From Verrucomicrobiaceae bacterium (GTDB lineage: Bacteria; Verrucomicrobiota; Verrucomicrobiia; Verrucomicrobiales; Akkermansiaceae), in contig JAIXQS010000144.1 of NCBI GenBank assembly GCA_027485615.1, positions 62,001 to 126,000 on the forward strand: a DNA stretch of 64,000 nucleotides. The letters are read 5' to 3'. The translations under genes were made by a program, and so were the position numbers. The notes below the pieces were generated by a model. The model did no database searches. It was given only the letters and a program-made list of their open reading frames with translations, and was not told the origin of the DNA. Shown piece after piece: positions 4,935-37,230 of the stretch (its first letter is position 1; the number at the start of each line of letters is the position of its first letter).

Positions 4935-4985
4935 AAAGTGGACTTGATTCCGCCGTGCAACCGTGCAATCGTGCAGCACGAAGCC

Positions 4986-6690: not shown

Positions 6691-6700
6691 TGCTCCTGCC

Positions 6701-6913
6701 ATGCCCGAAGCCGCCATCGAAACCACCGGAACCGTGCTCGAACGCAAGGGCGAGATCCTCTACCGCATCGAGTTGATGAACGGCAAGGTCGTGCTCGGCC
6801 ACCTTTCCAAAAAACTGACCGACGCGGGAACGGAGTTTCCCGATGGCGCGGCGGTGCAGCTCGAAATGACGCCGTACGATTTCGACCAGGCGCGCATCCT
6901 CGGCGGGGTCTGA
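6701..6913 (+). CDS. infA: Translation initiation factor IF-1-like S1/OB-fold protein
   Basis: TGTVLERKGEILYRIELMNGKVVLGHLSKKL...VQLEMTPYDFDQARIL aligns by eye with IF-1. Confidence 0.75.
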   Translation: MPEAAIETTGTVLERKGEILYRIELMNGKVVLGHLSKKLTDAGTEFPDGAAVQLEMTPYDFDQARILGGV

Positions 6914-7943: not shown

Positions 7944-8644
7944 CCTCACTCACCGGAAAAACCTTTCTCGTCACGGGCGCTTCGAGCGGAATCGGGGCGG
8001 CTTTGTGCGGGCAGCTGCTGGGGCATGGAGCGAACGTGCTGGGGGTCACGCGGCGGCCGGCGTTGTTGCATCCGGATGTTTCACCGATCGTGGCGGATCT
8101 CACCTCGCGCGAGGATGTTTCCGGTATCTTCACCCGGCTCGGGAAAATCGACGGGCTTGTGAACTGCGCGGGCGTCGCATACCTGTCCCGCATCATCGAT
8201 GGCAACCCACAGGACTGGGAGGAGATGTGGCGCGTGAACGTCCTCGCGCTGACGTTGTGCTGCCAGTTCTCGCTGAAACATTTCCCGAAAGCGGGGGGGC
8301 GCATCGTGAACGTTTCCTCGATGTCCGGCCACCGCGTGCCGCCTTCCGGCGGATTTTACGCGCCGACGAAATTCGCCGTCCGCGCGATCAGCGACGCGCT
8401 GCGCTCGGAGCTGAAGGCCGCGCGCTCGCCAATCCAGGTCGCCTGCGTCTCGCCGGGCTTCGTCGATACGCCGCTGCTCGACAACTATTTCCGAGGCCGT
8501 GAGGAAGCTCTCTCACAAACCCGCGCTGGGATGAAAATGCTCGAGCCGGAGGACGTCGCGCACTGCATCATGACGATCCTGACCGCTCCACCGCATGTCG
8601 AGATCGGCGATATCCTGCTGCGCTCCTCGGATCAGATGGCCTAG
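7940..8644 (+). CDS. Short-chain dehydrogenase/reductase
   Basis: GKTFLVTGASSGIGAALC, NCAGVAYL, NVSSMSGHRVPPSGGFYAPTKFAV (YxxxK); ATGA coupled to the preceding gene. Confidence 0.9.
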   Translation: MTSLTGKTFLVTGASSGIGAALCGQLLGHGANVLGVTRRPALLHPDVSPIVADLTSREDVSGIFTRLGKIDGLVNCAGVAYLSRIIDGNPQDWEEMWRVNVLALTLCCQFSLKHFPKAGGRIVNVSSMSGHRVPPSGGFYAPTKFAVRAISDALRSELKAARSPIQVACVSPGFVDTPLLDNYFRGREEALSQTRAGMKMLEPEDVAHCIMTILTAPPHVEIGDILLRSSDQMA

Positions 8645-9768
8645 GTTTTCCTCGACCTCATCCTGCCGAGCGGGGTCTCGATGTATTTCCAGGAAAGCAT
8701 CGTCAAGCCCCACGTGAGCGCGGCGGCGAGCGCGATCCGCACGATGATGAGCGGCGCGCTCTCGGCGTAAGGCCCCCACCACAGGAAGAACATGAGTTTC
8801 CCCAGGATGATGGGCGCGAGGTTGTGGTAGAGGTAGATGCCGTAGGAAAGCAGGCCCACTTTCTGGAGGAATTCGGTTTCCAGGAAGCGTCCGGCGAAGT
8901 TGTTCCAGCCCAGCGAGGCGGTCGCGATCACTCCGCACAGCCCCAGCGAAAGGATGGATCCAAAGAACGGCCCGATCCGGTTCGGTGGCAGGCCGAACCG
9001 CGGGCCGAACTCCAGCACCGCGTAAGCGCCGCAGCCGGCGATCATGAGTATTTTCCAGAACCTCGATGAAAGCGGGAAACCCCGGTGCACCGCCAGCGCC
9101 ATGAGTCCGCCGATACCGAAGAAATCGAACCAACCCCAGCTCAGCTTGTGCGGCCAGACGAAGGGCGGCATGAACAGGTGTTCGTAATACCGCGACAGCG
9201 GTGCGATCGCTGCGAAAAGGATCATAGCCGGGGCGAGGAATCGCTTCGGCACCAGCCAGACCAAGGCCGGCCAGAAAAGATAGAACTGCTGCTGGATCGC
9301 GATGGACCAGAAATGCGAGGTGCCGTGCGGCCATTCGCCGAGCAGGGCGATGTGGAAGTTGGTGAGGTAGAGGAGATACCAATGGATGTGGGGCCCGATC
9401 CGCGGCGCCAGGAAAACCAAGGCGACAGCCAAAGCCACATAATACGGCACCATGATGCGCAGACCACGCCGCCACTGGAAATCTTTCCACGCCCGCCAGC
9501 GCCAGCCCGATCCCAAGGCTTCCTGCTTGTCGCGCGTGCGCAGCAGGGAACCGGTGATGAGATATCCCGTGAGCACCAGGAAAAAGTAGAGCCCCACCTC
9601 GTAGGGCAGCCCGAGATTCCACGCCTCCGGCACCCAATGATCCCAGCAGATGCCCAGCATCGCGAGCGCACGCAGCCCGTCGAGCTGGATGGCGCGGTTT
9701 GTCGCGGGCACGGTCATGGCGAGGTTTTGGTGGGCGAAAAATCCGGGACAGCTAACAATCGCCGCCAT
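8641..9768 (-). CDS. Acyltransferase family membrane protein (OafA/YrhL-like)
   Basis: QLDGLRALAMLGICWDHW, multiple TM segments, SYGIYLYHN near C-terminus. Confidence 0.85.
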   Translation of the reverse strand: MAAIVSCPGFFAHQNLAMTVPATNRAIQLDGLRALAMLGICWDHWVPEAWNLGLPYEVGLYFFLVLTGYLITGSLLRTRDKQEALGSGWRWRAWKDFQWRRGLRIMVPYYVALAVALVFLAPRIGPHIHWYLLYLTNFHIALLGEWPHGTSHFWSIAIQQQFYLFWPALVWLVPKRFLAPAMILFAAIAPLSRYYEHLFMPPFVWPHKLSWGWFDFFGIGGLMALAVHRGFPLSSRFWKILMIAGCGAYAVLEFGPRFGLPPNRIGPFFGSILSLGLCGVIATASLGWNNFAGRFLETEFLQKVGLLSYGIYLYHNLAPIILGKLMFFLWWGPYAESAPLIIVRIALAAALTWGLTMLSWKYIETPLGRMRSRKT

Positions 9769-9775
9769 TGCCCTA

Positions 9776-9879
9776 GTCCGGGCGTTTCCCCGCTGTCAAT
9801 CACCGACGCCCCCGCGAAGTCGCAGGTTTCCTAAACTAAGGAGAAAACCTGCGATTTCGCGGGAAGTCGGCGCCCGGAC
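9776..9879. repeat. Nested inverted repeat/long hairpin
   Basis: Outer arms gtccgggcg (9776-9784)/cgcccggac (9871-9879); inner arms cccgcgaagtcgcaggttt (9811-9829)/aaacctgcgatttcgcggg (9845-9863), 18/19 complementary. Confidence 0.85.
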
Positions 9880-9881
9880 GC

Positions 9882-9915
9882 AAAAAGCGGACCAGCCCTT
9901 CCGGGCGGCCCGCTT
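9882..9915 (-). terminator. Rho-independent terminator for gap
   Basis: On the minus strand AAGCGGGCC...GGTCCGCTTTTTG, a 9-bp stem followed by a T-run, just downstream of the gap stop. Confidence 0.8.
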
Positions 9916-9931
9916 CGGGAAACGTTTCGGA

Positions 9932-11071
<1,140 letters not shown>

Positions 11072-11114
11072 CTACCCGTCAACCCCGCTGTCAGAAGGGT
11101 GGAAACAGGGTTCC

Positions 11115-11278
11115 CTACACTAGAAAGAGAACCGCGAAGGCGCTAAGTCGCGAAGTTTTCTCAGATTCCATTCATCTAAAACCATAAATTCTCATTGTAT
11201 TTGCTTCGCGTCTTAGCGCCTTCGCGGTTCAATCACTTATTTCTGACAAAGTTTGGTGACTGTGCTTCCCTAGTGTAG
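11115..11278. repeat. Intergenic inverted-repeat element with 'ccgcgaaggcgctaag' arms (MITE/REP-like)
   Basis: aaccgcgaaggcgctaagtcgcgaag (11130-11155) inverted at cttcgcgtcttagcgccttcgcggtt (11204-11229), 25/26; outer ctacactag (11115-11123)/ctagtgtag (11270-11278). Confidence 0.85.
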
Positions 11279-11373
11279 AAATCCTGAGAGCGGAAAAGGC
11301 CGGCTTTGCGGCCGGAAAGCATCGGAACTTGACCTTGCCATCATGCCCACCGCTCCACGAAACTCCGCCCGCA

Positions 11374-12657
11374 ATGCTGGACATCAAGGTCATACGGGAA
11401 CAGGCGGAAGAGGTGAAGATGCGGCTCAAGGCGCGCGGCGGGGATCATTGGAAACTGATCGACGAGGTGCTGGCCTGCGATGAGGCGCGGCGCGCGGCGG
11501 AAACCGCTAAGCAGGAGCTCCAGAACAAGCGCAAGACGATCTCGAAACAGATCGGGATGATGAAGGCGAAGGGCGAGGACAGCTCGGCCATCGAGGCGGA
11601 GGTTCGCGGCATCAACGACGAGATTTCCAAGCACGACAGCGAGGCCGAGACCGCCTCCGCGAAGCAGACGGACCTGCTCCTCAACATCCCCAACCTCCCC
11701 CACGCGCAATGCCCGGCGGGCGACAGCGAGGAGGCGAACCCCGTCGTCCGCGAATGGGGCGCGAAACCGGAAATTTCCGAGCCGAAGGATCATGTGGAGC
11801 TCGCCACAAAACACGGCCTGATCTCGTGGGATGATGCGATCCGCATCGCCGGATCGGGCTTTGCGGTGTATCGCGGCAAGGGCGCGAAGCTGGAGCGGGC
11901 GCTGATCCAGTTCCTGTTGGATACGCAGACGGAAAACGGCTACGAGGAGGTCAACGTGCCGCACCTCGTGCTGCGCGAGTGCATGGAGGGCACCGGGCAG
12001 TTGCCGAAGTTCGAGGACGACATGTATGGCACCGAGCCTTCGGAAAACGACGGACGCAACACCCTTTTCCTCGCCCCCACCGCCGAGGTGCCGGTGACAA
12101 ACCTTTACCGCGACACCATCGTCGCCGAATCCGACCTTCCGATCAAGCTCGTGGCCTACACGCCATGCTTCCGCCGCGAGGCGGGCTCCGCGGGGCGCGA
12201 CAACAAGGGCATCATCCGCATGCACCAGTTTGATAAGGTGGAGCTTGTCCAGATCGTCGATCCGGAGACGGGTTTCCAAGTGCTGGAGGAACTCACCTCG
12301 CACGCCGAAAGCATTTTGCAAAAGCTCGGCCTTCATTACCGCGTGATCGAGCTTTGCACCGGAGACATCGGGCAGTCCTCGGCGAAGACTTATGACATCG
12401 AGGTCTGGGCACCCGGCCACGGGAAATACCTGGAGGTGTCGAGCTGCTCGTGTTTCGGCGATTACCAGGCGCGGCGGATGAAGCTGCGTTTCAAGGACAA
12501 GGAAGGGAAAAACCGTTTCCCACACACCCTCAACGGTTCCGGCACCGCACTGCCGCGGCTCTATGTCGCGCTGTTGGAGCAATGCCAGCAGGCCGATGGA
12601 TCGATCAAAATCCCCGCCGCGCTCGTTCCTTTTTTCGGAGCGGAAAGCATTTCCTAA
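11374..12657 (+). CDS. serS: Seryl-tRNA synthetase
   Basis: MLDIKVIREQAEEV, TAEVPVTNLYRDTI, TPCFRREAGSAGRDNKGIIRMHQFDKVE, NGSGTALPRLYVALLEQCQQ. Confidence 0.97.
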   Translation: MLDIKVIREQAEEVKMRLKARGGDHWKLIDEVLACDEARRAAETAKQELQNKRKTISKQIGMMKAKGEDSSAIEAEVRGINDEISKHDSEAETASAKQTDLLLNIPNLPHAQCPAGDSEEANPVVREWGAKPEISEPKDHVELATKHGLISWDDAIRIAGSGFAVYRGKGAKLERALIQFLLDTQTENGYEEVNVPHLVLRECMEGTGQLPKFEDDMYGTEPSENDGRNTLFLAPTAEVPVTNLYRDTIVAESDLPIKLVAYTPCFRREAGSAGRDNKGIIRMHQFDKVELVQIVDPETGFQVLEELTSHAESILQKLGLHYRVIELCTGDIGQSSAKTYDIEVWAPGHGKYLEVSSCSCFGDYQARRMKLRFKDKEGKNRFPHTLNGSGTALPRLYVALLEQCQQADGSIKIPAALVPFFGAESIS

Positions 12658-21930: not shown

Positions 21931-22084
21931 GGTGGGTTTCGGGGTTGGGCGGGATTTGCCGCGAGGCGATTCTTAGCTTCCGTCCCGCAGGATGCGAGCG
22001 AAAGATTGCGGGGTGAAACTTTCCCCAAATTTCCGGTTTCCATCCCCCGCTTCCCGTCGTTGAATGCCCACGCATCCCCGACCC

Positions 22085-23758
22085 ATGAGCCAATCCCCAC
22101 TCCGCATCGCCGTCGGCGCCGATCATGGCGCCTTTGAAATGAAGAACGCCATCGTCGCCCACCTGCGCGCGGCGGGCCACGAGGTGGAGGACTTCGGGAC
22201 AAACACGCCGGACTCGGTGGACTACCCGGATTTCGCCAACGCTGTTGCCCGCAACGTCGCGGACGGCACCTTCGATTTCGGCATCCTCGCCTGCACCTCG
22301 GGAGTCGGCATGTGCATCGCAGCGAACCGCCACACCCACGTCCGCGCCGCCAACGTGCGAACGGTCGAGGAAACCGTCACCACCCGCAAACACAACGACG
22401 CGAACGTGCTTTGCCTTTCCGGGAAATCCACCGACATTGCCACCGCCATCGAAATGGCCGGCGCGTTCCTCGCCACCGGGTTCGAGGGCGGCCGTCACCA
22501 GGGGCGTGTTTGCAAATCCTCCGGCAGCCGCATTTCCGTGACCGATCCCGAGCTTTACGCGGCCATCGTCGGCGAGGAGCACCGCCAGCGGAACCACATC
22601 GAGCTGATCGCCTCGGAAAACTTCGCCTCGCCCGCCGTGATGGAGGCGCAGGGTTCGTTGCTCACCAACAAATACGCCGAGGGCTACCCCGGTAAACGCT
22701 GGTATGGCGGCTGCGAATACGTGGATGTCGTGGAAACCCTCGCCATCCAGCGCGCCAAGGAGCTTTTCGGAGCCGATCATGCCAACGTCCAGCCGCACTC
22801 CGGCTCCCAGGCGAACACCGCCGTCTATTTCTCCGTGCTCAAGCCGGGAGATAAAATGTTCACCATGGATCTCGCCCACGGCGGCCACCTCACCCACGGC
22901 CACAAAGCCAACTTTTCCGGCCGCTTTTACGACGTGACCCACTACGGCGTTTCCCCCGATGACGAACGCATCGATTACGCCGAGTTGGAAAAAACCGCCC
23001 GTGAACTCAAGCCCGCCCTCATCACCGTGGGTGCCTCTGCCTACTCGCGCATCATCGATTTTGAGCGCATGGGGAAACTCGCCCGCGAGGTCGGCGCTTA
23101 CCTTTTCGTGGATATGGCGCACATCGCGGGTCTCGTCGCCGCCGGGGTGCATCCCAGCCCGTTTCCGCACGCGGATTTCGTCACCTCCACCACCCACAAG
23201 TCCCTGCGCGGCCCGCGCGGCGGGATCATCCTGTGTAAGGAAGAGTTCGCGAAAAAAATCGACTCCCAGGTCTTCCCCGGCATCCAGGGCGGCCCGCTCA
23301 TGCACGTCATCGCCGCGAAGGCCGTCTGCTTCGGCGAGGCGCTCAAGCCCGAGTTCAAGACCTACTCCGCCCAGGTCGTGAAAAACGCGCAGGCCATCGC
23401 CGCGCGCCTCACCCAGCATGGTTTCCGCATCTGCTCCGGCGGCACCGACAACCACGTGATGCTCGTCGATCTCCGCCCGAAAGGCCTCAACGGCTCCGAC
23501 GCCTCCGTCGCCCTCGACGAAGCGGGCATCACCGTGAACAAGAACGGCATCCCTTTCGACACCGGCAGCCCCATGAAGCCCTCCGGCATCCGCATCGGCA
23601 CCCCCGCCGTCACCACCCGCGGGATGGTGGAGAAAGACGTCGAACAAGTCGCCGACTTCATCGCCGAAGCCCTCGCCGACCACACCAACACTGCCAAGCT
23701 CCACGCGATCCGCGACAAGGTCTTCGCCTTCAATCGGGCGTTTCCGCTGCCTTGGTGA
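22085..23758 (+). CDS. glyA: Fused ribose-5-phosphate isomerase B (N-term) - serine hydroxymethyltransferase (C-term)
   Basis: [21 protein letters not shown]...[21 protein letters not shown] (RpiB), then [25 protein letters not shown]...[10 protein letters not shown]...[15 protein letters not shown] (SHMT) in one uninterrupted frame. Confidence 0.92.
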
Positions 23759-23905: not shown

Positions 23906-23974
23906 TCAATGCGCCGCCAGCCAGTTTTTACCGGTGCCGTGCTCGACAAGGATGGGGACGCCGTGGGGGAGCAA
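23906..23974 (-). pseudogene. Relic of polA 3' end (last ~20 codons plus stop)
   Basis: Minus strand encodes LLPHGVPILVEHGTGKNWLAAH*, versus LPHGVPILVEKGTGKNWLAAH* at the true polA end (34426-34491). Confidence 0.92.
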
Positions 23975-24036: not shown

Positions 24037-26895
24037 ATGGGAATCACGGATTATCAGGCGAAATACCTCGCCTACGAGCTGACCAAACGCTGCCCCTCGG
24101 ACAGCGTGGAGAAGCTTGCCAGCGCGGTGGCCGGGGCGCAGGTGGATCTGAATCCGCATCAGGTGGACGCCGCGTTGTTTGCTTTCCGCTCACCGCTTTC
24201 AAAGGGGGCGATCCTTGCGGATGAGGTCGGGTTGGGGAAAACCATCGAGGCCGGGCTGGTCATCTCCCAGAAATGGGCGGAGCGGCAGCGCCGCATCCTG
24301 ATCATCACTCCCTCAAACCTCCGGAAGCAATGGCACCAGGAGATGAACGAGAAATTCTTCCTGCCTTGCGCGATTCTGGAAACAAAGTCCTACAACGCCG
24401 CCATCCGGATGGGTTCCTTCAGGCCCTTCGAGCCGAAGGAGGATGCCGTGGTCATTTGCTCCTACCAATTCGCCCGCAACAAAGCCGCCGATGTCCACCG
24501 GACTCCATGGGATCTGGTGGTCATCGATGAAGCCCACCGACTGCGTAACGTTTACAAGCCCTCGAACATCATCGCCAACGTGCTCAAGGGTGCCTTGCAG
24601 GATCGCCACAAGCTCCTGCTCACCGCCACGCCGCTCCAGAATTCCCTCCTGGAACTCTTCGGCCTAGTCAGCATCATCGACGATCACACTTTCGGCGATC
24701 TCCGCAGTTTCCGCGATCAGTTCGCCAACCTGAGCCAGCAGCAGGTTTTCGATACTCTCAAGGCACGGCTGAAACCGATCTGCCACCGCACCTTGCGCCG
24801 TCAGGTCACGCAGTATGTGCCGTTCACGAAACGCCATGCCATGGTAGAGCCATTCGATCCCGACGAGGGCGAGGACAAGCTCTATCACCTCGTTTCCGAT
24901 TATCTACAGCGGGAGAATCTCCAAGCACTGCCTCCCGGCCAGCGCAGCCTGATGACCTTGGTGCTGCGGAAACTCCTCGCCTCCTCGTCCTTCGCCATCG
25001 CCGGGGCGCTGACCTCCATTTCCAACCGCCTCAAAGCCCAGCTCAAGGAGGACGAACCCCATCTCACGCTCGAAGAGGAACTGGACGAGGACTACGAATC
25101 CCTCGACGAAACCGCCGAGGAATGGGGCGATGACCCGCCTGAGCCACTGACCGCCGCAGACCGCGCCGCCATCAGCGCGGAGATCACCGATCTGGACGAG
25201 TTCACCCGACTCGCCCTCTCGCTGGATCACAACGCCAAGGGCAAGGCCCTGCTCAAGGCGCTCGATGTCGCCTTCGCCAAGGCCCGCGAACTCGGTGCTG
25301 CGGAAAAGGCCATCATCTTCACCGAGTCCCGCAAAACCCAGAGCTACCTGCTCCGGCTGCTGGGCGATAGCCCGTGGGCGGAGGGCATCGTGCTCTTCAA
25401 CGGCTCCAACACCGACGACACCTCGAAAGCCATCTACGCCCGCTGGGTGGGTCGCCATCAGGGAACGGACAAGATCACCGGCTCCCGCACGGCGGACATG
25501 CGCTCCGCCCTCGTCGATTACTTCCGCGAACAGGGACGCATCATGATCGCCACCGAGGCCGGTGCGGAGGGCATCAACCTCCAGTTCTGTTCGCTCGTGG
25601 TGAACTACGATCTGCCGTGGAATCCGCAGCGCATCGAGCAGCGCATCGGTCGCTGCCACCGCTACGGCCAGAAGCACGATGTGGTGGTTGTCAATTTCCT
25701 CAACCGCAAGAACGAGGCGGATCTCCGCGTGTTCCAGCTCCTCGATGAGAAATTCCAGCTCTTCACCGGCGTCTTCGGCTCCAGCGACGAGGTGCTCGGA
25801 GCCATCGAATCCGGCGTGGACTTCGAGAAACGCATCGCCGCCATCTATCAGGACTGCCGCAGGCCGGAGGAAATCAAGACCGCCTTCGACGCACTCCAGC
25901 TCGAGCTCGACTTCGAGATCAACGAGGCCATGACCGCCACCCGGCGCAAGCTGTTGGAAAACTTCGACGACGAGGTGCGGGACAAGCTCAAGATCCGAAA
26001 CGACGCCTCCAAGGCCTTCCTTAGCCGCTTCGAGCGCCAGCTCATCCAGCTCACCCGCCACGAGTTGAGCGGCCACGCCCGCTTTGACGACGATTCCACT
26101 TTTGACCTGATCAGTGATCCTTTCCCGGGAAGCAAAGGCATCACGCTTGGCCGCTACGAGCTGCCGCGCCGCTCGGGTGAGTCCCACCTCTACCGCCTCG
26201 GCCACCCGCTCGCCGAACACGTCATCGCCCGCGCGAAGACCCGCGACCTGCCTATTGCCGAAGTCGAGTTCCGCTACGCAGACCACGACGGAAAAATCAG
26301 CATTCTGGAACCCCTGCGCGGGAAATCCGGCGCCCTTGCCGTCTCCATGTTCACCGTAGAGTCCATGGATCAGGCCGAGGATCACCTTATCTTCGCCGCC
26401 TGCACCGATGACGAAACGATGCTCGATGAGGAACAGGTCCGGCGAATGCTCACCCTGCCAGCCCGGACAACCGATTCGCTCCTCGCCCTACCCGCACCCG
26501 GAAAACTCGATGCCTTCGCCGCCGCACGGCAAAAGGAAATCCAGCGCCAGGTCTCAGAACGCAACGCCCTCTTCTACGAAGCCGAAGCCACCAAACTCGA
26601 CGGCTGGGCCGATGACCTGAAAGTCGGCCTCGAACGCGAGATCAAGGAATTCGACCGCCAACTCAAGGAAACCCGCCGGGCTTCGGTAACTGCGCTGACA
26701 CTGGAGGAAAAGCTGGAAAGCCAAAAGCAGATCAAGGCCATCGAAGCCCAACGGAACGAAAAGCGGCGCTCGCTTTTCGAGGCGCAGGATGCCATTGATT
26801 TGCAGCGGGAAGCATTGATCGACAAGATCGAGAGCAAGCTGCAACATTTGATCGAATCCCACTCTCTTTTCTCCATCTGCTGGACGATGTCCTGA
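24037..26895 (+). CDS. SNF2-like helicase (defence-island type)
   Basis: GAILADEVGLGKTIEAGLVI (Walker A), VVIDEAHRLRN (DEAH), LLLTATPLQNS, FTESRKTQSYLLRLL, VNYDLPWNPQRIEQRIGRCHRYGQ. Confidence 0.92.
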   Translation: MGITDYQAKYLAYELTKRCPSDSVEKLASAVAGAQVDLNPHQVDAALFAFRSPLSKGAILADEVGLGKTIEAGLVISQKWAERQRRILIITPSNLRKQWHQEMNEKFFLPCAILETKSYNAAIRMGSFRPFEPKEDAVVICSYQFARNKAADVHRTPWDLVVIDEAHRLRNVYKPSNIIANVLKGALQDRHKLLLTATPLQNSLLELFGLVSIIDDHTFGDLRSFRDQFANLSQQQVFDTLKARLKPICHRTLRRQVTQYVPFTKRHAMVEPFDPDEGEDKLYHLVSDYLQRENLQALPPGQRSLMTLVLRKLLASSSFAIAGALTSISNRLKAQLKEDEPHLTLEEELDEDYESLDETAEEWGDDPPEPLTAADRAAISAEITDLDEFTRLALSLDHNAKGKALLKALDVAFAKARELGAAEKAIIFTESRKTQSYLLRLLGDSPWAEGIVLFNGSNTDDTSKAIYARWVGRHQGTDKITGSRTADMRSALVDYFREQGRIMIATEAGAEGINLQFCSLVVNYDLPWNPQRIEQRIGRCHRYGQKHDVVVVNFLNRKNEADLRVFQLLDEKFQLFTGVFGSSDEVLGAIESGVDFEKRIAAIYQDCRRPEEIKTAFDALQLELDFEINEAMTATRRKLLENFDDEVRDKLKIRNDASKAFLSRFERQLIQLTRHELSGHARFDDDSTFDLISDPFPGSKGITLGRYELPRRSGESHLYRLGHPLAEHVIARAKTRDLPIAEVEFRYADHDGKISILEPLRGKSGALAVSMFTVESMDQAEDHLIFAACTDDETMLDEEQVRRMLTLPARTTDSLLALPAPGKLDAFAAARQKEIQRQVSERNALFYEAEATKLDGWADDLKVGLEREIKEFDRQLKETRRASVTALTLEEKLESQKQIKAIEAQRNEKRRSLFEAQDAIDLQREALIDKIESKLQHLIESHSLFSICWTMS

Positions 26896-26916
26896 GCGCT
26901 ACCCATCCAAATCGTC

Positions 26917-28230
26917 ATGTATATCCACAAGATCAAGCTCACCAACATTCGCGGCTTCAAAAGCCTCGAATTTGATCTTCAACGTCCGGATCCCGACAAA
27001 TCCTACGCTGGATGGACGGTCTTTACCGGCGACAATGGCTCCGGGAAAAGTACGCTCCTCAAGGCCATTGTGATGGGGTTGGTAGGCCCGGATACAACCC
27101 GCTCTTTACAGCCCAATCTCAATCGCTGGGTGAATGCTTTCAGCGAAGACAAAACCGCAGCCATTCATCTGGAAGTCACAAGTGCTGCCGATGACACGAG
27201 CCTGGATGGCGGAGGCCCCCCGCCGAAGAAGCCATTCCCTGTGGATCTGTCGTTGGTGAACGGCGGGAAACAGACCGAGCTGTTTGCGCCGGAGAAGGGA
27301 ACAAAAAAGAAATCACTGCCCGAGCGGACAATTTGGTCTAAGAACAACGCCGGATGGTTTTCATGCGGGTACGGGCCGTTTCGCCGGGTTTTTGGAGCGT
27401 CCTCGGAAGCCACTGAGATCATGATGGCGCGGCCAACAGCACCGTATGCTACCATGTTTCAGGAAGCTGCATCACTCTCACCTGCTGATCGGTGGCTGAT
27501 CGATCTTGATCACAAGGCGTCGCGCGATCCCACATCGAGAGAGAAAGAACTACTGGACGTTTTGCTTGAACTTTTGAAAGACGAGCTAATGCCGAACGGC
27601 ATGGTGGTGAAGCGGGTTGATCCGGATGGTCTCTGGCTCGCGGATTCCCGGGGCGTGGAGCTTTCATGGCGGGACATGAGCGATGGATACAGGGCAGCTC
27701 TTGCACTTTTGACCGACATCTTCCGACACCTCTGCCATACCCATGAAGAAACAAGTGTAAGCAGCCTTGTTGAACGTAACACTGAAGGGAAGATGAGCGT
27801 GATTTCTTCAGGAGTCGTGTTGATTGATGAAATCGATGCCCACCTGCACCCCGAGTGGCAGCGCGAGATCGGCTTCTGGTTGAGACGACATTTTCCTAAC
27901 GTCCAGTTTCTTGTCACCACGCACAGTCCGATCATTTGCCAAGCTGCGGATCCCAACGGGCTGTTCGTGTTGCCGGAACCTGGAAGCGAACTCGACCCTC
28001 ACGCTTTAAGTGATGAAGATTACCGCAAGATCATTTCCTCGAGACCCGATACGATCCTGTTGACTCCGGCATTTGGGCTCAAGAACACCCGCTCGCCCAG
28101 AGCGGTTGATGCCAGAGCCGAGTATTCGAAGCTGGTCGCCGTCCGCCGTGCGGTGGGCAAGCTCAACCCGGTAGATCAGAAGCGTTTCGAGCAACTCGAA
28201 CTTTTCGTCGATAACGACGAAGCACCCTGA
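26917..28230 (+). CDS. AAA/ABC-like ATPase (AAA_21/PtuA-like)
   Basis: IKLTNIRGFKSLEF, GDNGSGKSTLLKAI (Walker A), LSWRDMSDGYRA (signature-like), GVVLIDEIDAHLHPEWQREI (Walker B), LVTTHSPIICQ. Confidence 0.88.
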   Translation: MYIHKIKLTNIRGFKSLEFDLQRPDPDKSYAGWTVFTGDNGSGKSTLLKAIVMGLVGPDTTRSLQPNLNRWVNAFSEDKTAAIHLEVTSAADDTSLDGGGPPPKKPFPVDLSLVNGGKQTELFAPEKGTKKKSLPERTIWSKNNAGWFSCGYGPFRRVFGASSEATEIMMARPTAPYATMFQEAASLSPADRWLIDLDHKASRDPTSREKELLDVLLELLKDELMPNGMVVKRVDPDGLWLADSRGVELSWRDMSDGYRAALALLTDIFRHLCHTHEETSVSSLVERNTEGKMSVISSGVVLIDEIDAHLHPEWQREIGFWLRRHFPNVQFLVTTHSPIICQAADPNGLFVLPEPGSELDPHALSDEDYRKIISSRPDTILLTPAFGLKNTRSPRAVDARAEYSKLVAVRRAVGKLNPVDQKRFEQLELFVDNDEAP

Positions 28231-28233
28231 GTC

Positions 28234-28980
28234 ATGCGGAAGATTTGCAGAAAGGCACTTCCGAAAGCAGAGGCTGGAAAGCTGCGCACCGAGCAAACGA
28301 ATGCGAACGCGAAACTCGCGGGCAAGACACTCGATGTGCAAAAGGAATGGAAGCGCGCGCGGCAGAACAAACCACTCAAGGTTGCATTCGACACCTTGCT
28401 AGGGATGGCTGGGAACAGGGAGCGGTGCATGTATTGCGGTGACTCCCAAGGAACGGACATCGAGCATTTTTGGCCGAAGAACACTTATCCGAAAAAGATG
28501 TTCCGATGGAACAATCTTCTTCTTGGATGCACGGCATGCGGACGTGATCATAAGGGGACGAGGTTTCCGCTGGATGCCGGAAAAAAGCCGCTGCTGATTG
28601 ATCCCACAAAGGATGATCCTTGGCTGTTTTTGGATTTCGATCCGATGACTGGAAACTTTTCGGCTCGATATGATGCACTCGGAAACCCTGCCCCAAAGGG
28701 AGCAAAAACGGTTGAGGTGCTTGCTTTGGATCGAAGGGAGGCTCTCGCATCAGGACATCAGAAAGCCTACAAGCACATCTCAAAACTCATCTCGGAAGCC
28801 GCGGCTACATCGACGGCTGATGCCACGACTTTAATCTCCGGCCTGAAAGAAGTGGATGAATATGGCATTCTTGGCTGGTGCTTTCGGGGAGCCGGTATCA
28901 ACGAGCCTCCCATGTCTTCTCTCAGAAGCGCCCATCCCGCCATTTGGGCCAAGTGCGTCAAAGCTTTCAAAAATTCCTAA
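28234..28980 (+). CDS. HNH-family nuclease (PtuB-like)
   Basis: CMYCGDSQGTDIEHFWPKNTYPKKMFRWNNLLLGCTACGRDHKGTRFPL: two CxxC pairs and a DIEHFWPK core. Confidence 0.82.
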   Translation: MRKICRKALPKAEAGKLRTEQTNANAKLAGKTLDVQKEWKRARQNKPLKVAFDTLLGMAGNRERCMYCGDSQGTDIEHFWPKNTYPKKMFRWNNLLLGCTACGRDHKGTRFPLDAGKKPLLIDPTKDDPWLFLDFDPMTGNFSARYDALGNPAPKGAKTVEVLALDRREALASGHQKAYKHISKLISEAAATSTADATTLISGLKEVDEYGILGWCFRGAGINEPPMSSLRSAHPAIWAKCVKAFKNS

Positions 28981-30620
28981 TGTCTTCCAAGAAAACCAAA
29001 CTCGAACTCACCTGGATCGGCAAGGAGCACCGGCCGAGGCTGGAGCCGCGCATCCTGCTGGAGGAACCGGACAAGTCCCATCACGCGAAGCACCGGGTTT
29101 CGGACGGGGACCTCTTCGACAACCGGCTCATCCGCGGGGACAATCTGCTCGGACTCAAGGCGCTTGAACAGGAGTTCGCCGGGAAGGTGAAGTGCGTCTT
29201 CATCGATCCGCCTTACAACACGGGAAGCGCGTTCGAGCATTATGATGACGGGGTGGAGCATTCGATTTGGTTGTCATTGATGCGGGATCGCTTGGAGATA
29301 CTGCGAGAATTATTAAGTACGGACGGGGTGATCTGCGTTCAGGCTGATGATAACGAAGGACAGTATCTAAAGGTGATGATGGATGAGGTTTTCGGCAGAA
29401 GAAATTTTCTCACTACATTCATCTGGAGAAAGGTAGACAGTCCAAATGATAACAAGGTTTTCATAACACCAGATCACGAATACATATTCTGCTACGCTGC
29501 TGATTCAAGCCGTGTGAAGTTGTCGCGAAAGGCTGACGCGAGTATTCTTGATGGTTACAGCCAACGTGATGAGAATGGGCGGCTTTGTCGGGATCGACTG
29601 CTCAAAAAGAACGGGAAAAACAGCATGAGAGAAGATCGTCCGTCCATGTTCTTTCCAATGATCGCTCCGGACGGAAGTGAAATTCTTCCGATTCATGACG
29701 ACGGGAAAGAGGCTCGATGGGCGATGGGAAAAGCTGGAGCGGAAGCTTTGGAAAAGAGAGGTGATTTGATCTGGAAGAATCGTGGAACAGCTACCGAGCC
29801 GAAGTGGATCCCCTATTCCCGTGAATATGCTCCCGTATCACCGCAGCGACCATTCCCGACAATTTGGAGTGATCTACATACGACGAGACAAGCGAAAGCT
29901 CACCTAAAAGAGGTGTTTGGCGCGTCGGCGATGTTCGATACTCCGAAGCCTGAACCTTTGATTCAACGCATACTCGAGCTCGCCACCAACCCCGGCGATC
30001 TCGTTCTCGATTCCTTCCTCGGCTCCGGGACGACGGCGGCGGTGGCGCACAAGATGGGGCGGCGGTGGATCGGCATTGAGCTGGGCGAACATTGCGAGAC
30101 GCATTGCCTGCCGCGTTTGAAGAAAGTGGTCGATGGCGAGGATCCCGGCGGCATCACGCAGGCGGTCGGCTGGAAGGGCGGCGGCGGATTCCGCTACTAT
30201 CGCCTCGCGCCCTCGTTATTGGAAAAGGACAAGTGGGACAACTGGGTGGTGTCCAAGGAATACAACGCCGCCATGCTGGCGGAGGCGGTTTGCAAGCTGG
30301 AGGGCTTTTCCTACGAACCCAGCGACTCGCTCTACTGGCAGCACGGCCACAGCACCGAGCGGGATTTCATCTACACCACCACCGCGAACCTGAGCCACGA
30401 CCAGCTCCAGGAACTCAGCGACGAGGTCGGCCCGGAGCGCAGCCTGCTCGTCGTCTGCTCCGCCTTCCGCGGCCGCAAGGAGGGCTACCCGAACCTGACT
30501 GTGAAGAAGATCCCCAATGCAGTGCTTACCCGCTGCGAGTGGGGCAAGGACGACTACAGCCTGAAAGTGGAGAACCTCCCCAAGGCTCCTCCGGAGCCGG
30601 GGCAGCAGGAGCTTTTCTGA
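28980..30620 (+). CDS. Site-specific DNA methyltransferase, beta-class N6-adenine (type III Mod-like)
   Basis: VFIDPPYNTGSAFEHYDD (motif IV) precedes LVLDSFLGSGTTAAVAHKMGRRWIGIELG (motif I); TAATG overlap with the HNH gene. Confidence 0.9.
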   Translation: MSSKKTKLELTWIGKEHRPRLEPRILLEEPDKSHHAKHRVSDGDLFDNRLIRGDNLLGLKALEQEFAGKVKCVFIDPPYNTGSAFEHYDDGVEHSIWLSLMRDRLEILRELLSTDGVICVQADDNEGQYLKVMMDEVFGRRNFLTTFIWRKVDSPNDNKVFITPDHEYIFCYAADSSRVKLSRKADASILDGYSQRDENGRLCRDRLLKKNGKNSMREDRPSMFFPMIAPDGSEILPIHDDGKEARWAMGKAGAEALEKRGDLIWKNRGTATEPKWIPYSREYAPVSPQRPFPTIWSDLHTTRQAKAHLKEVFGASAMFDTPKPEPLIQRILELATNPGDLVLDSFLGSGTTAAVAHKMGRRWIGIELGEHCETHCLPRLKKVVDGEDPGGITQAVGWKGGGGFRYYRLAPSLLEKDKWDNWVVSKEYNAAMLAEAVCKLEGFSYEPSDSLYWQHGHSTERDFIYTTTANLSHDQLQELSDEVGPERSLLVVCSAFRGRKEGYPNLTVKKIPNAVLTRCEWGKDDYSLKVENLPKAPPEPGQQELF

Positions 30621-30815: not shown

Positions 30816-31736
30816 GTGAAATACGAGAAGGAACCCCTCACTTTCGAGGAGCAGGCGGATCGCTTGCTGGGCCGTGGCTTGATCGCCGATCGGGACGAAT
30901 TGATCACCCGGCTGGCCGCAGTGAACTACTACCGCCTGAGCGGCTACCTATATCCATTCCGGCAGCCAAACGACAGCTATGTATCCGGAACTACGATGGA
31001 GACGGTTTGGCGGCGCTACGTGTTTGATCGTCGGCTCAGGGTTCTGATCCTCGACGCGATAGAACGGATCGAAGTCGCGGTTCGGACCAAGTTGGTTTAC
31101 CACCTTTCCCATCATGTTGCCACGGGTTCCACCGATCCGGCTGGAGCCTTCGGCTATCTCGATCATCGATTTTTCCCAGGGTTCAAGACCGCAAGCGAAT
31201 TCCTGAAGTGGCGCTCCAAGCTGGCACTGGAAACGGACCGCGCGAAGAGCGAGAAGTTCGTAGAGCACTTCCGTAGCAAATACGGAGACGAGCACAAAGA
31301 ACTGCCCTGCTGGATGGTCGCGGAACTGATGAGCTTTGGAGCTATGCTCACCATGGCCAAGAATGTCGTCCCCGAGGTGCAGAAAAAAGTGGCGGACGAT
31401 TATGGATTTTCTGTGGATCACTTCATTTCATGGCTGCACGCCTTGATGGTGTTGCGAAATGCCTGCGCCCATCATGACCGGATCTGGAATCGTGGAAGTG
31501 GAAAGGCGTGCAAGACTCAGAAGAACAAGTTTCCTCTCTGGCGCCTGAAGCCAGTGATACCTAACGACCGTACAGGCTATCTGCTTACGATTTGCCATTA
31601 CTGGCTCGGCTTGGTCAGTCCTACTACCTGTTGGCGGGATCGGCTGTTCGCCTTGTTCGACGAGTTTCCCGAAATACCGCTCGACCCGGTTGGCCTTCCC
31701 GCCGATTGGCGCAATCACCCGCTTTGGAAATCATGA
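30816..31736 (+). CDS. Abi_2 (AbiD/AbiF-like) abortive infection protein with HEPN-like motif
   Basis: LTFEEQADRLLGRGLIADRDELITRLAAVNYYRLSGYLYPF; C-terminal LMVLRNACAHHDRIWNR (RxxxxH). Confidence 0.88.
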   Translation: MKYEKEPLTFEEQADRLLGRGLIADRDELITRLAAVNYYRLSGYLYPFRQPNDSYVSGTTMETVWRRYVFDRRLRVLILDAIERIEVAVRTKLVYHLSHHVATGSTDPAGAFGYLDHRFFPGFKTASEFLKWRSKLALETDRAKSEKFVEHFRSKYGDEHKELPCWMVAELMSFGAMLTMAKNVVPEVQKKVADDYGFSVDHFISWLHALMVLRNACAHHDRIWNRGSGKACKTQKNKFPLWRLKPVIPNDRTGYLLTICHYWLGLVSPTTCWRDRLFALFDEFPEIPLDPVGLPADWRNHPLWKS

Positions 31737-34432
31737 ACCGACACGTCAACGCCATCTCCGGCCGCCTCAGCCTGCGCAAGCCCCAGCGGGATTCGCTGGA
31801 GATCCTGCATCGCATCACCGAGATCGCGCCGCCGACCAAGGACATCGACCGTGAGGCCGCGCTGGCTGCGATCCGTGCCGAGTTCCCGACGGTAACGGAT
31901 TTCGAGCGCGAGTTCGCTTCGTTGTGCTTCGCGCTGGCGACGGGTGTCGGCAAGACGCGGCTGATGGGAGCTTTCATCGCCTATCTGCATCTTGAGCATG
32001 GCATCAACAACTTCTTCGTCTTGGCTCCCAACCTGACGATCTACAACAAGCTGATCGCCGACTTCACGCATCCCAATCTCCCAAAGTATGTGTTCAAAGG
32101 TATCTCGGAGTTTGCCGTCACTCCGCCAGAAATTATTACCGGCGATAGCTACGAAAGCATACGGGTTGTCGATCAACCTACGCTCCCTGCATATGCCAAG
32201 TGTTTCATTAACATTTTCAACATCAGCAAGATCAACAGCGAGGTGCGCGGCGGCAAGGCACCGCGCATCAAGCGGCTCAGCGAATACATCGGCGAGAGCT
32301 ACTTCGAATACCTCGCCGGGCTGCCGGATCTGGTGCTGATCATGGACGAGAGCCACCGCTACCGCGCGAGCGCCGGGGTGAGGGCGATCAACGAGCTGAA
32401 GCCCGTGCTGGGCTTGGAATTGACCGCCACTCCGTTTGTGGAAAGCCCCAAGGGTGCCATCCCTTTCAAGAACGTGATCCTCGACTATCCGCTCGGCAAG
32501 GCGATGGATGATGGTTTCGTGAAGGAGCCCGCCGTGGTCACGCGGAAGAACTTCGATCCGAAAGGCATGACGCCCGCCGCCGTTGAGGAAATGAAGCTGA
32601 TGGATGGCGTCCGCATGCACGAGCAAACCAAGGTGTTGCTCGAAACCTACGCCCGTGAGGCGGATGTGAAGATCGTGAAACCCTTCGTGCTGGTGATCGC
32701 CCGGGACACAACCCATGCCAAGGCACTGCTCGACATGATCCAATCGGATGACTTTTTCGAAGGCCGCTACAAGGACAAGGTCATCCAGGTGGACAGCAGC
32801 AAGACCGGGGCTGACGAGGAAAAGATGATCGCCGATCTTCTCACGGTGGAGCACAACGAGGATCCCACGGAGATCGTGATCCACGTCAATATGCTCAAGG
32901 AAGGTTGGGATGTGACCAACCTTTACACGATCGTTCCGCTGCGGGCAGCGAATGCGCGGATTCTCATCGAGCAATCCATCGGTCGCGGGTTGCGCCTGCC
33001 CTATGGCAGGCGTGTCGGAGTCGCCGCCGTGGATCGGCTCAGCATCATCGCACACGATAAGTTCCAGGAGATCGTGGATGACGCGAGGAAGCCGGATTCC
33101 GCGATCAAGAAACTCCATCTCATCGAGCTGGATGGCAATGACATCGAAAGCAGGACGGAGACGGTCGTTTCCCAATCGAACATGGCGAGCAAGCTGGGAC
33201 TCAAGCCCGCCCAGACGACGGAGAGCACCCATCTTGCGGGCGGCGAAATCGCTCCGGCCTTCGAGACAGCCGCGCAGCAACGTGTCGCCCAGCTCGCCTA
33301 CGAAGTGATCAAAAGGCTGGAAGCAAAACCCAAGGAGGTGCCAACCATGGCCGCGCTGGAGACGCCTGCGATCCAAAGCGCCATCATGCAGGAAGTGGCC
33401 GCACTCTATCGTCCGCAGCAGGGGGAGCTGGAAGGCATCGTTGAGCAACCGGACATCGCCGGGATCGTCAGCCAGACGACATCGCTGATGATGCGGGAAA
33501 TGATCCCGATTCCCCGGATTCTTGTGGTGCCGCAAGGCGAGGTGAAAAGCTGGTTCGAGACCTTTGAGCTGGATCTCAAATCGCTCCGCTATCCCGCGCC
33601 ATCGAAAGATCTCTGGGTTCATAACCTGCACACGGATCTTGGCGAGGCCGTGACCGTGAGCGGCGATGGATACCGTGAGCTGCGGATGGAGAACTATGTG
33701 GTCGGTGGCTTGGTGGACTTCGATGACATCTCGTATGATGCGAACGCCGATCTGCTCTACACCTTGGCCACGCAGACGGTGAATCATTTCAAGAGCTACC
33801 TGCCGGAAGAGGAGGTGTGGCAGGTGCTGCATCATCACCAGAAGGAAATCGCCCGTTTCATCCACGGCCAGATGCAGAAGCATTACCGTGAGGAAATCTC
33901 CGGCTATGAAGTGAAAGTGAGCAAAGGTTTCACCGAACTGAAGCCGAGCGCATTCACGGTGAACTACGGGCAGAAGAATCTGGATTACCGCGTATCGCCC
34001 GCCGACAAGAGCAACATGGCGAAATACCTCTTCGGCGGCTTTTCAAAATGCCTATACGCCGTACAGAAATTCCACTCCGAGGCGGAGCGTGTGCTTTCCG
34101 TGATCTTGGAGCGTGAAGCGATCAAATGGTTCAAGCCCGCGAAAGGACAGTTCCAGATCTATTACAAAAGTGGAGCCGACCATCCCGAGTATCAGCCGGA
34201 CTTTGTCGCCGAGACGGAGACAGCGATCTACATGCTCGAACCCAAGGCGAAAAAGGACATGGAGGAACCTAGTGTCATCGCAAAAATGGAAGCGGCGACG
34301 AGGTGGTGCGAACGTGCCAGCGACCACAACGCCAAACATGGCGGCAAGCCTTGGCGTTACGCCCTGATCTCTCACGAGAAGATCAAGGAGAACATGACGA
34401 TAGAGGGATTGGTAGGCCTCCATAATCAGTGA
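31733..34432 (+). CDS. Type III restriction enzyme Res-like helicase-nuclease
   Basis: FALATGVGKTRLMGAFIAYL, LIMDESHRYRA, LELTATPF, HVNMLKEGWDVTNLYTIVPLRAANARILIEQSIGRGLRLPYG, C-terminal YQPDFVAETETAIYMLEPKAKKD (PD-ExK); ATGA coupled to abi-like gene. Confidence 0.9.
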   Translation: MNRHVNAISGRLSLRKPQRDSLEILHRITEIAPPTKDIDREAALAAIRAEFPTVTDFEREFASLCFALATGVGKTRLMGAFIAYLHLEHGINNFFVLAPNLTIYNKLIADFTHPNLPKYVFKGISEFAVTPPEIITGDSYESIRVVDQPTLPAYAKCFINIFNISKINSEVRGGKAPRIKRLSEYIGESYFEYLAGLPDLVLIMDESHRYRASAGVRAINELKPVLGLELTATPFVESPKGAIPFKNVILDYPLGKAMDDGFVKEPAVVTRKNFDPKGMTPAAVEEMKLMDGVRMHEQTKVLLETYAREADVKIVKPFVLVIARDTTHAKALLDMIQSDDFFEGRYKDKVIQVDSSKTGADEEKMIADLLTVEHNEDPTEIVIHVNMLKEGWDVTNLYTIVPLRAANARILIEQSIGRGLRLPYGRRVGVAAVDRLSIIAHDKFQEIVDDARKPDSAIKKLHLIELDGNDIESRTETVVSQSNMASKLGLKPAQTTESTHLAGGEIAPAFETAAQQRVAQLAYEVIKRLEAKPKEVPTMAALETPAIQSAIMQEVAALYRPQQGELEGIVEQPDIAGIVSQTTSLMMREMIPIPRILVVPQGEVKSWFETFELDLKSLRYPAPSKDLWVHNLHTDLGEAVTVSGDGYRELRMENYVVGGLVDFDDISYDANADLLYTLATQTVNHFKSYLPEEEVWQVLHHHQKEIARFIHGQMQKHYREEISGYEVKVSKGFTELKPSAFTVNYGQKNLDYRVSPADKSNMAKYLFGGFSKCLYAVQKFHSEAERVLSVILEREAIKWFKPAKGQFQIYYKSGADHPEYQPDFVAETETAIYMLEPKAKKDMEEPSVIAKMEAATRWCERASDHNAKHGGKPWRYALISHEKIKENMTIEGLVGLHNQ

Positions 34433-37230
34433 GCGGCGAGCCAGTTTTTCCCGGTGCCTTTCTCGACTAAGATCGGCACGCCGTGGGGTAAGGGCAGGGC
34501 GGTTTCCATGATGTGGAGGATTTTGGGGACAAGTTCGGCTTCCTCGTCGGGGTGGAGGTCGAAGACGAGTTCGTCGTGGACCTGGAGGAGCATTTTGGTC
34601 TGATAGGGCTTTTTGCGGAGGAGCTCGTCGATGCGGATCATGGCGATCTTGATCATGTCGGCGGCGGTGCCTTGGATGGGCATGTTGATGGCGGCGCGCT
34701 CGGCGTTCTGGCGCAGGCCGGCATTGGAGGAGGAGAGGTCGGGGTAATGGCGGCGGCGGCCTGATAGGGTTTCGGCGTAGCCTTTTTCCCGGGCGGTGGA
34801 GATGGCGTGATCCATGTATTCCTTGATGGCGGGATATTCGCGGAAGTAGGCGTCGATCAGCTCGGCGGCATCGGCGCGGGGGATGGCGAGGCGCTGGGAG
34901 AGGCCGAAGGCGGAGATGCCGTAGATAATGCCGAAGTTCACCATCTTCGCGCCGGAACGCATGTCGCGGGTGACTTCCTCGGGGGTGACGTTGTGGACTT
35001 TCGCGGCGGTGATCGTGTGGATGTCCGCGCCGTCCTGGAAAGCGGTGATCATGGTGGGATCGCAGGCGAGGGCGGCCATGACGCGGAGCTCGATCTGGGA
35101 GTAGTCGCAACTAAGTAATAGATATTGGATATTGGATATTGGGGATTTCCTCGGCACGAAGGCCTGGCGGATTTTCCGGCCGGACTCGGAGCGGACGGGG
35201 ATGTTCTGGAGGTTCGGATCCGAGGAAGCGAGGCGGCCCGTAGCGGCTAGGAGCTGGTGGTAGTGGGTGTGGATGCGACCGGTCTCCGGGGCGATGTGGT
35301 TCGGTAGGGCGTCGAGGTATGTGGATTTGAGTTTCGTGGCCTCGCGGTATTCGAGGATTTCCGCGATGATGGGGTGGATGCCGAGGAGGGTGGAGAGGGT
35401 CTGCTCGTCCGTCTTGTATTGGCCGGTGGCGGTTTTCTTGGGCTTGTCGAGGAGCTTGAGGTGCTCGAAGAGGATCTGGCCGAGCTGCTTGGGGGAGGCG
35501 ATGTTGAAGGGGGTGCCGGCGTGGGCTTCGATGGATTTCGCGAGCTGGTCGATGCTTTGCTGGAGATCGACGCCGATATCCTTGAGGGCACTGGGATCGA
35601 TGGCGATGCCTTCCATTTCCATGCGGACGAGGACGGGGAGGAGAGGGGATTCGATTTCGGAAAAGATGGTTTCCATGCCGCTCCCGGCGAGGACGGGGCG
35701 GAGCTTTGCGGCGAGCTGGAAGGTGACATCGGCGTCCTCGGCGGCGTATTCGGCCAAGGTTTCCAGGGGGATGGAAAGCATGTCCAGATCCTTGGACTTG
35801 GTGGTTTGCTTTTCAGCGAAGGCGAAGAGGTCGTCGGATTGATTGACGATTGATGATTGTTGATTGGCGATTTCCGATAGTTTGACCGGGGTGTAGCCGA
35901 GCAGGGTTTCCGAGAGGTAATCCATGCCGTGGCGGCGCTCGGGGGAGGTGAGGGCGTCGGCGAGCATGGTGTCGAAGAACGGGCCTGCGACGGTGATGCC
36001 GTGGGAGTGGAGGACGGAGAGATCGTATTTGAGGTTGTGGCCGATTTTGACCGCCGTTCCGGCTAACAGAGATTTGAGATTTGAAGTTAGGGATTCGGAA
36101 AATGGGAGATACCAGCCTTCGTGGGCTTTCCAGGAGAAGGCGATACCGAGGAGTTTCGCGGAGTGGCGGTCGAGGGAAGTGGTTTCGATGTCGAAGCAGA
36201 AGGAGGGCTGTGCGGCGAGTTCGGTGAAGAGGGTTTTCTGGAGTGCGGGTGTGTTGGCGAGATGGTAGGTGTGTGGGACGTCCTTGATGGTTTTGAAGGT
36301 GTCGAAGAGGGTGGGGGTTGTCTCTTGTGGCGGACGGCTCGGCGAGCCATCCCTACCTTTTTCCTCCCCGAAGAGCCGTTTCGTGAGGGTGCGGAATTCG
36401 AAGTCGGTGAAGAGCTGTTTGACGGCCTCGTCGTCGCGGGGGCTGAGGACGAGATCTTCCCATGTGACGTCGAGCGGGCAATCGATGATGATGGTGGCGA
36501 GTTCCTTGGAGAGGAGAGCCTGGTCGGAGTTCGCTTCGATGGATTCCTTCTGTTTGCCTTTCAGGGAGGCGGTGTTCGCGAGGAGGTTCTCGATGCTGCC
36601 GTATTCGGAAATGAGTTTCTGCGCGGTCTTGGGGCCGATGCCGGGGACGCCGGGGATGTTGTCGGAGGCGTCGCCCATGAGGCCGAGGAGATCGATGATC
36701 TGGTGCGGCTCGGCGACGCCCCAGATTTCCGGGAGCTGCTTGAGGCCGATGATTTCGTGGTCGGTGCCCTTGCGGCCGGGCTTCCACATGAAGGTGGTTT
36801 CGGAAAGGAGCTGGGCGAAGTCCTTGTCGGGGGTGACCATGTAGGACACGAAGCCCGCTGGCTCGGCGCGTTTCACGAGGGTGCCGATGAGGTCATCCGC
36901 CTCGAAGCCGTCGATCTCAAGGACGGGGATGTGGAAGGCGCGGCAGAGGGCTTTCACGTGGGGGATGGAGTCGGCGAGCTCCTCGGGCATGGCGTCGCGC
37001 TGGGCCTTGTAGGCGGGGTAGCGGATGTGGCGCGGGGTGGGCGCAGAGGTGTCGAAGGCGACGCCGATGTGGGTGGGCTTTTCCTTTTCGAGGATGGCGA
37101 GGAGGGTGTTGATGAAACCGTAGAGCGCGGAGGTGTTGACGCCCTTGGAGTTCCGGATAGGAGCCTGGATGAACGCGAAATGGGCGCGGTAGATGAGGGC
37201 CATGCCGTCGAGCAGGAAAAGGCGGTGCAT
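34426..37230 (-). CDS. polA: DNA polymerase I
   Basis: FLLDGMALIYRAHFAF (5'-3' exo), FCFDIETTSLDRHSAKL (3'-5' exo-like), LLSCDYSQIELRVMA, MRSGAKMVNFGIIYGIS, LLQVHDELVFD. Confidence 0.97.
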   Translation of the reverse strand: MHRLFLLDGMALIYRAHFAFIQAPIRNSKGVNTSALYGFINTLLAILEKEKPTHIGVAFDTSAPTPRHIRYPAYKAQRDAMPEELADSIPHVKALCRAFHIPVLEIDGFEADDLIGTLVKRAEPAGFVSYMVTPDKDFAQLLSETTFMWKPGRKGTDHEIIGLKQLPEIWGVAEPHQIIDLLGLMGDASDNIPGVPGIGPKTAQKLISEYGSIENLLANTASLKGKQKESIEANSDQALLSKELATIIIDCPLDVTWEDLVLSPRDDEAVKQLFTDFEFRTLTKRLFGEEKGRDGSPSRPPQETTPTLFDTFKTIKDVPHTYHLANTPALQKTLFTELAAQPSFCFDIETTSLDRHSAKLLGIAFSWKAHEGWYLPFSESLTSNLKSLLAGTAVKIGHNLKYDLSVLHSHGITVAGPFFDTMLADALTSPERRHGMDYLSETLLGYTPVKLSEIANQQSSIVNQSDDLFAFAEKQTTKSKDLDMLSIPLETLAEYAAEDADVTFQLAAKLRPVLAGSGMETIFSEIESPLLPVLVRMEMEGIAIDPSALKDIGVDLQQSIDQLAKSIEAHAGTPFNIASPKQLGQILFEHLKLLDKPKKTATGQYKTDEQTLSTLLGIHPIIAEILEYREATKLKSTYLDALPNHIAPETGRIHTHYHQLLAATGRLASSDPNLQNIPVRSESGRKIRQAFVPRKSPISNIQYLLLSCDYSQIELRVMAALACDPTMITAFQDGADIHTITAAKVHNVTPEEVTRDMRSGAKMVNFGIIYGISAFGLSQRLAIPRADAAELIDAYFREYPAIKEYMDHAISTAREKGYAETLSGRRRHYPDLSSSNAGLRQNAERAAINMPIQGTAADMIKIAMIRIDELLRKKPYQTKMLLQVHDELVFDLHPDEEAELVPKILHIMETALPLPHGVPILVEKGTGKNWLAAH
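35119..35147. repeat. Heptamer tandem repeat (gatattg)x3 inside polA
   Basis: gatattg-gatattg-gatattg-gggattt at 35121-35148. Confidence 0.85.
35836..35877. repeat. Degenerate heptamer repeat (TTGNNGA)n inside polA
   Basis: ggattga-ttgacga-ttgatga-ttgttga-ttggcga-tttccga. Confidence 0.8.
36069..36096. repeat. Degenerate heptamer repeat (gagattt)n inside polA
   Basis: gagattt-gagattt-gaagtta-gggattc. Confidence 0.65.
36332..36357. repeat. Palindromic element ggacggctcggcgagccatccctacc inside polA
   Basis: 10-bp arms (one mismatch) around a single G; shares the 'tccctacc' tail with a second palindrome at 16807-16834. Confidence 0.6.

Follow-up and report, generated by a model that had tools for sequence, protein, structure and literature searches.

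The window, by which we mean the whole stretch of 64,000 nucleotides analysed here, contains a 10.5-kb island of six genes on the + strand, recognized from ORF calls and profile searches as an SNF2 helicase, ptuA, ptuB, mod, an AbiD gene and res (Table 1). It lies between an rpiB-glyA-like gene on one side and polA on the other; the single ORF 22064-23758 looks like ribose-5-phosphate isomerase B fused to serine hydroxymethyltransferase. All six reading frames are open and their catalytic motifs are in place. The helicase, which probably starts at ATG 24037 (the frame is open from TTG 24019), has the motifs DEVGLGKT, DEAH and RIGRCHRYGQ. It is followed after 21 nt by ptuA, which is separated by 3 nt from ptuB; ptuB and mod overlap by 1 nt (TAATG), mod and the AbiD gene are 195 nt apart, and the AbiD gene and res overlap by 4 nt (ATGA). 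Because of the 195-nt gap, AbiD and Res may have a promoter of their own; the number of sites in a sigma-70 promoter scan was not above that of shuffled sequences. By their core motifs (N6/N4 methyltransferase motifs in Mod, a DEAD-like helicase plus PD-ExK in Res), Mod and Res are a predicted type III restriction-modification (RM) pair. Residues 214-219 of AbiD (RNACAH) form a HEPN-like R-x4-H motif, which suggests that this protein may be an RNase.

Table 1. Features of the island and its flanks (positions in the window)
Feature	Position	Strand	Evidence or remark
Displaced copy of the polA 3' end, island 5' flank	23906..23968	-	63-nt direct repeat of 34426-34488, 83%
SNF2-family helicase (HEL), DrmD_b-like	24037..26895	+	PADLOC DrmD E 2.4e-200; Pfam SNF2-rel_dom
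Slot 1	26832..28979	.	Bounds are where blastn similarity to L008, the nearest backbone, is lost and then regained
PtuA-type ABC ATPase (Septu)	26917..28230	+	PADLOC PDLC00269 E 1.8e-144; 437 aa; Walker A/B conserved
PtuB-type HNH nuclease (Septu)	28234..28980	+	PADLOC PDLC00317 E 7.9e-44; TIGR02646 above cut-off; 248 aa; H78/N94 invariant
Type III Mod methyltransferase	28980..30620	+	MTase_III E 3.1e-196; motifs DPPYNT, FLGSGTT
Exchanged Mod centre, presumed target-recognition region	29298..29939	+	No blastn match to L008
Abi_2/AbiD gene, slot 2 cargo	30816..31736	+	Abi_2 E 9.5e-53; AbiD E 8.3e-62; RNACAH motif
Type III Res (helicase-nuclease)	31733..34432	+	REase_III E 9.5e-199; GVGKT, DESH, PDF-x-ExK
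3' end of the present polA, island 3' flank	34426..34488	-	63-nt direct repeat partner

A preliminary description, made from the sequence alone, had placed a Septu-like pair between the helicase and the methyltransferase: an ABC-like ATPase with Walker A, signature-like and Walker B motifs, and 3 bp behind it an HNH protein. Both ORFs and their surroundings, an SNF2 helicase and a type III Mod, were found as described, and the search with PtuA and PtuB profiles confirmed the assignment (Table 1). The ATPase has GDNGSGKST at residue 38, MSDG at 254 and LIDEIDAHLHP at 302, with the Walker residues K44 and D304/E305 conserved, and the HNH protein has CMYC, DIEHF (including H78), N94 and CTAC. The 16-residue spacing from H78 to N94 equals that of H75/N91 in PtuB of Septu EcB88, where mutation of H75/N91 abolished defence; EcB88 PtuAB, which also needs PtuA K43/D316, cleaves tRNA-Tyr (PMC13096335). 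The same tRNA was reported as a PtuAB target elsewhere (PMC11555353), and Septu of E. coli ATCC25922 was reported to act on DNA (cited in PMC11555353). Among solved structures in the PDB, the window PtuA is closest in sequence to PtuA chains from Septu and from the retrons Ec83 and Ec78. The window PtuB is closest to PtuB chains, one of which was deposited with Ala substituted for the IEHF histidine that the window protein retains. A retron Ec78-type effector pair was ruled out: scores were below the NCBIfam equivalog cut-offs for retron Ec78 PtuA and PtuB (118.6 against 500 and 55.9 against 150 bits) and no reverse transcriptase was found among the island genes, so the pair is assigned to Septu type I, with ptuB directly 3' of ptuA after a 3-nt gap. 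The window pair is thus predicted to be a complete Septu-type PtuA-PtuB module with intact catalytic motifs. With PtuA as query, no relatives were found in viral contigs, and those on plasmids were only 31-38% identical.

On either side of the island lies a copy of the polA 3' end, the two forming a 63-nt direct repeat (83% identical, one amino-acid difference) of the kind that insertion at a gene end would leave. Since the outer copy is 92% identical to the polA end of a genus relative (G391), nearer than the present polA, the whole island probably came in at polA in one piece, bringing a foreign polA end. No integrase was found inside it. The GC contents of its genes are 0.607 (helicase), 0.545 (PtuA), 0.524 (PtuB), 0.562 (Mod), 0.553 (AbiD) and 0.573 (Res); relative to 32 background ORFs of the window (mean 0.626, sd 0.018) these correspond to z values of -1.1, -4.5, -5.7, -3.6, -4.0 and -2.9, so that by GC only the helicase looks native among the operon genes. 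The preliminary description had seen a hint of separate origin for the pair in hand counts of 31/60 (28501-28560) and 36/60 (25561-25620). The counts are exact, although two 60-nt pieces prove little, and PtuAB is indeed lowest in the operon; as proof of a separate PtuAB origin the argument is weakened, because Mod, AbiD and Res are low too. The low GC agrees with a foreign origin without singling out PtuAB.

A genome scan with the helicase yielded 574 relatives, the best 80 of which were taken with 10-kb flanks; the sample is therefore the top of a helicase search, and many of the comparison loci are MAG contigs. The order helicase, slot 1, Mod, slot 2, Res recurs in the mapped operons of this set, in records named Verrucomicrobiota, Proteobacteria, Nitrospirota, Acidobacteria, Chloroflexi and others. 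Slot 1 is complete in 55 operons including the window, with 33 gene arrangements of 41 cargo clusters (a count tied to the clustering used, single-linkage at E 1e-6); four loci with other methyltransferase families (L013, L035, L044, L084) were left out of the tally. Septu occupies the slot in three of the 55 (window, L067 and L082), and five slots are empty. The others hold AIPR/AbiU, SMC-like ATPases, AlbA-HATPase, IetAS, HEC-01AB, GmrSD/HEC-06, PDC-M30AB, SIR2+HerA, OLD-TOPRIM, M78 peptidase, KwaB, short Argonaute with SIR2, and Bro-N, so that by family assignment the slot 1 cargo consists of known defence modules. Some slot genes have no or weak family matches (L017 13013-14794, L073 11761-13755, L014 10004-11188). 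The slot of L015, counted as empty, was considered as a cargo remnant and rejected as such: Mod is interrupted near codon 72 and Res likewise, which makes insertion more likely. In this locus Mod and Res (4126-6747 and 8085-12038) are each broken by inserts of ~1-2.3 kb, probably mobile elements. Of 48 operons, 25 have nothing in slot 2, the interval between Mod and Res; in the remainder it mostly contains one gene (RhuM, DUF1016/YhcG, PDDEXK_3, AbiD); in L032 an Abi_2 relative occupies slot 1. Helicase relatives were also seen on IMG/VR contigs (L117-L145), often together with Mod and Res, and on enterobacterial conjugative plasmids (plasmid hits H7-H26).

The edges of the slots are sharp at the DNA level. 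The nearest backbone, L008 (~92% nucleotide identity), matches the window helicase by blastn at 92.6% up to 26462 and 89.9% up to 26831, 64 nt before the helicase stop; no similarity follows over 26832-28979, where the two operons carry different cargo, and it returns exactly at 28980, the first base of mod, at 97.5%. A second gap spans the Mod centre (29298-29939), with flanks at 93% and 94%, the right one reaching 30610. The AbiD region has no match in L008, and res matches at 91%. The comparison with L050 gave the same first two gaps, but AbiD is common to both operons. Given the L008 gaps and the AbiD shared with L050, slot 1, the Mod centre and slot 2 are three independently exchanged units. 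The window Mod centre shares 62% amino-acid identity with those of L064, L068 and L077, three operons from gammaproteobacterial records in which the helicase is just 58% identical to that of the window. Every Septu-bearing operon (3/3) has a sister backbone with different cargo: window and L008 (helicase 91%, Res 96%), L067 and L014 (93%), L082 and L074 (86%). Helicase and Res identities covary (Spearman 0.78 over 820 pairs, which are not independent). The Mod 5' regions of L008, L025 and L082 have insertions of ~66-177 nt after Mod residue ~42.

Scars were found at several slots. In L014, L040, L017 and L085, stacked cargos are separated by truncated Mod 5' ends (KKQKLELTWIGKE-RPRLEPRILLE), a C-terminal helicase fragment lies behind the first cargo in L087, and in L005 PtuAB is followed by ~30 codons of the Mod 5' end, the rest of the backbone missing. 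A reversed-sequence control gave zero matches, and no extra Mod 5' or helicase 3' fragments were found outside slots. These scars may be read as junctions from end-joining or homeologous recombination, and L005 PtuAB as a probable relocated copy with a Mod scar behind it.

In the trees, which are small with only three slot PtuABs, the window PtuA groups with the stand-alone PtuA of L111 (99/99) and the L067 slot PtuA with that of L110 (94/100). A single clade was rejected by AU tests for the slot PtuAs (p 8.8e-5) and for the slot PtuBs (p 3.5e-4), and no helicase, Mod or Res was found near the PtuABs of L110 and L111. The slot PtuABs thus appear to be of independent ancestry, with stand-alone pairs as closest relatives. 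L110 PtuA is 83% identical to that of L067, yet its PtuB is nearest to that of the window (68%); from this disagreement, ptuA and ptuB would also have been shuffled between pairs.

We conclude, with a probability of about 0.8, that recombination brought a Septu-type PtuA-PtuB module, as a cassette, into the helicase/Mod slot of a mobile type III RM operon. The preliminary description had already proposed an exchangeable cassette in a helicase/Mod/Res backbone, and the breakpoints, the variety of arrangements and the scars uphold it. The same backbone with other or no cargo, which it had suggested looking for, is seen in the 33 arrangements and five empty slots, and the constant co-occurrence with congruent trees that it had set against a cassette was not found, PtuAB being present in 3/55 operons and the single slot clade rejected. 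Entry of the cassette would have proceeded by recombination via the conserved 3' end of the helicase gene and the 5' block of mod, after which the cargo would be expressed from the operon together with Mod and Res. Unmethylated DNA would first be met by Mod/Res, assisted by the SNF2 helicase; if these failed or were blocked, PtuA would sense an infection cue and license the PtuB HNH nuclease, which would halt the infected cell by cleaving tRNA or DNA. A second effector of similar kind may be AbiD in slot 2. That PtuA gates PtuB in this operon is predicted by homology. Since the operon tolerates unrelated cargo as well as an empty slot, and close PtuABs occur on their own, we favour PtuAB as a second-line effector that acts independently of the RM genes while being expressed together with them.

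The same observations bear on a wiring of PtuAB to the RM system, in which, like PrrC in EcoprrI, it would be a guard, kept inactive as long as Mod/Res (or the helicase) remains intact and freed when a phage anti-restriction factor inhibits them. The layout, an ABC-ATPase tRNA nuclease unit within an RM operon, is similar, PrrC provides a precedent (PMC12707154), PtuAB acts on tRNA-Tyr (PMC11555353, PMC13096335) and the ptuB stop overlaps the mod start; with stand-alone close relatives, AU tests without a sign of co-evolution with the backbone, and unrelated or absent cargo in the slot, so that no conserved contact surface is required, such a guard is nevertheless improbable. It is very improbable that PtuAB is a decaying chance passenger of a defence island and functionless here, as scar-bearing or fragmented copies elsewhere (L007, L005) might suggest, since both genes are intact, in frame and operonic with conserved motifs, and slot contents are almost exclusively defence families. 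That PtuAB is an integral subunit of a fixed helicase/Mod/Res machine, in line with the tight spacing and the order kept in L067 and L082, is scarcely credible given its rarity in the slot, the other cargo in the nearest backbones and the rejected slot clade. More broadly, the SNF2-helicase/Mod/Res operon might be a general docking platform, in which unrelated defence modules (Septu, Kiwa KwaB, short Argonaute-SIR2, IetAS, SIR2-HerA, GmrSD, HEC-01, AIPR) are shuffled across phyla via the helicase 3' and Mod 5' blocks, are functionally tied to RM and act when restriction is blocked; this wider claim is doubtful.

The window pair has the same proteins, order, spacing and catalytic residues as Septu type I and differs in its place within a type III RM operon. 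Mod and Res in turn share all core motifs with type III RM, whereas the operon differs by the SNF2 helicase ahead and the two interrupting cargo slots. The helicase is closest to the DrmD_b profiles of DISARM but scores under both DrmD equivalog cut-offs (670/950 and 253/610 bits), and DrmA, DrmB and DrmC were not found among the five other island genes. Hma and DUF499-centred BREX-related (BR) systems with embedded candidates (HEC) likewise combine an SNF2 helicase, a methyltransferase and embedded defence genes, but the DUF499 ATPase (HmaC) is absent from the island, whose helicase is instead partnered by type III Mod and Res; Septu inside Hma is on record (PMC8565338; also cited in PMC12255303). 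Defence effectors are likewise embedded in RM operons in the case of PrrC in EcoprrI (PMC12707154), TgvAB (PMC11411939) and DarTG2 (PMC12255303), but these hosts are type I RM systems, whereas the window host is type III and its cargo is exchanged wholesale. Backup effectors are also embedded in BREX/BR systems (PMC12839542), and embedding of defence genes as such is already established. No description of an SNF2-helicase/type III RM platform with exchange scars was found in the literature searched, a key preprint on embedding lying outside it.

The locus provides a concrete case of embedded defence genes being swapped, with the same backbone, sharp breakpoints and junction scars. Several slot genes without a PADLOC or Pfam match are candidate unknown defence genes, for which the slot serves as a finder. 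With natural pairs of operons that differ mainly in cargo, the dependence of embedded effectors on their host RM system becomes testable.
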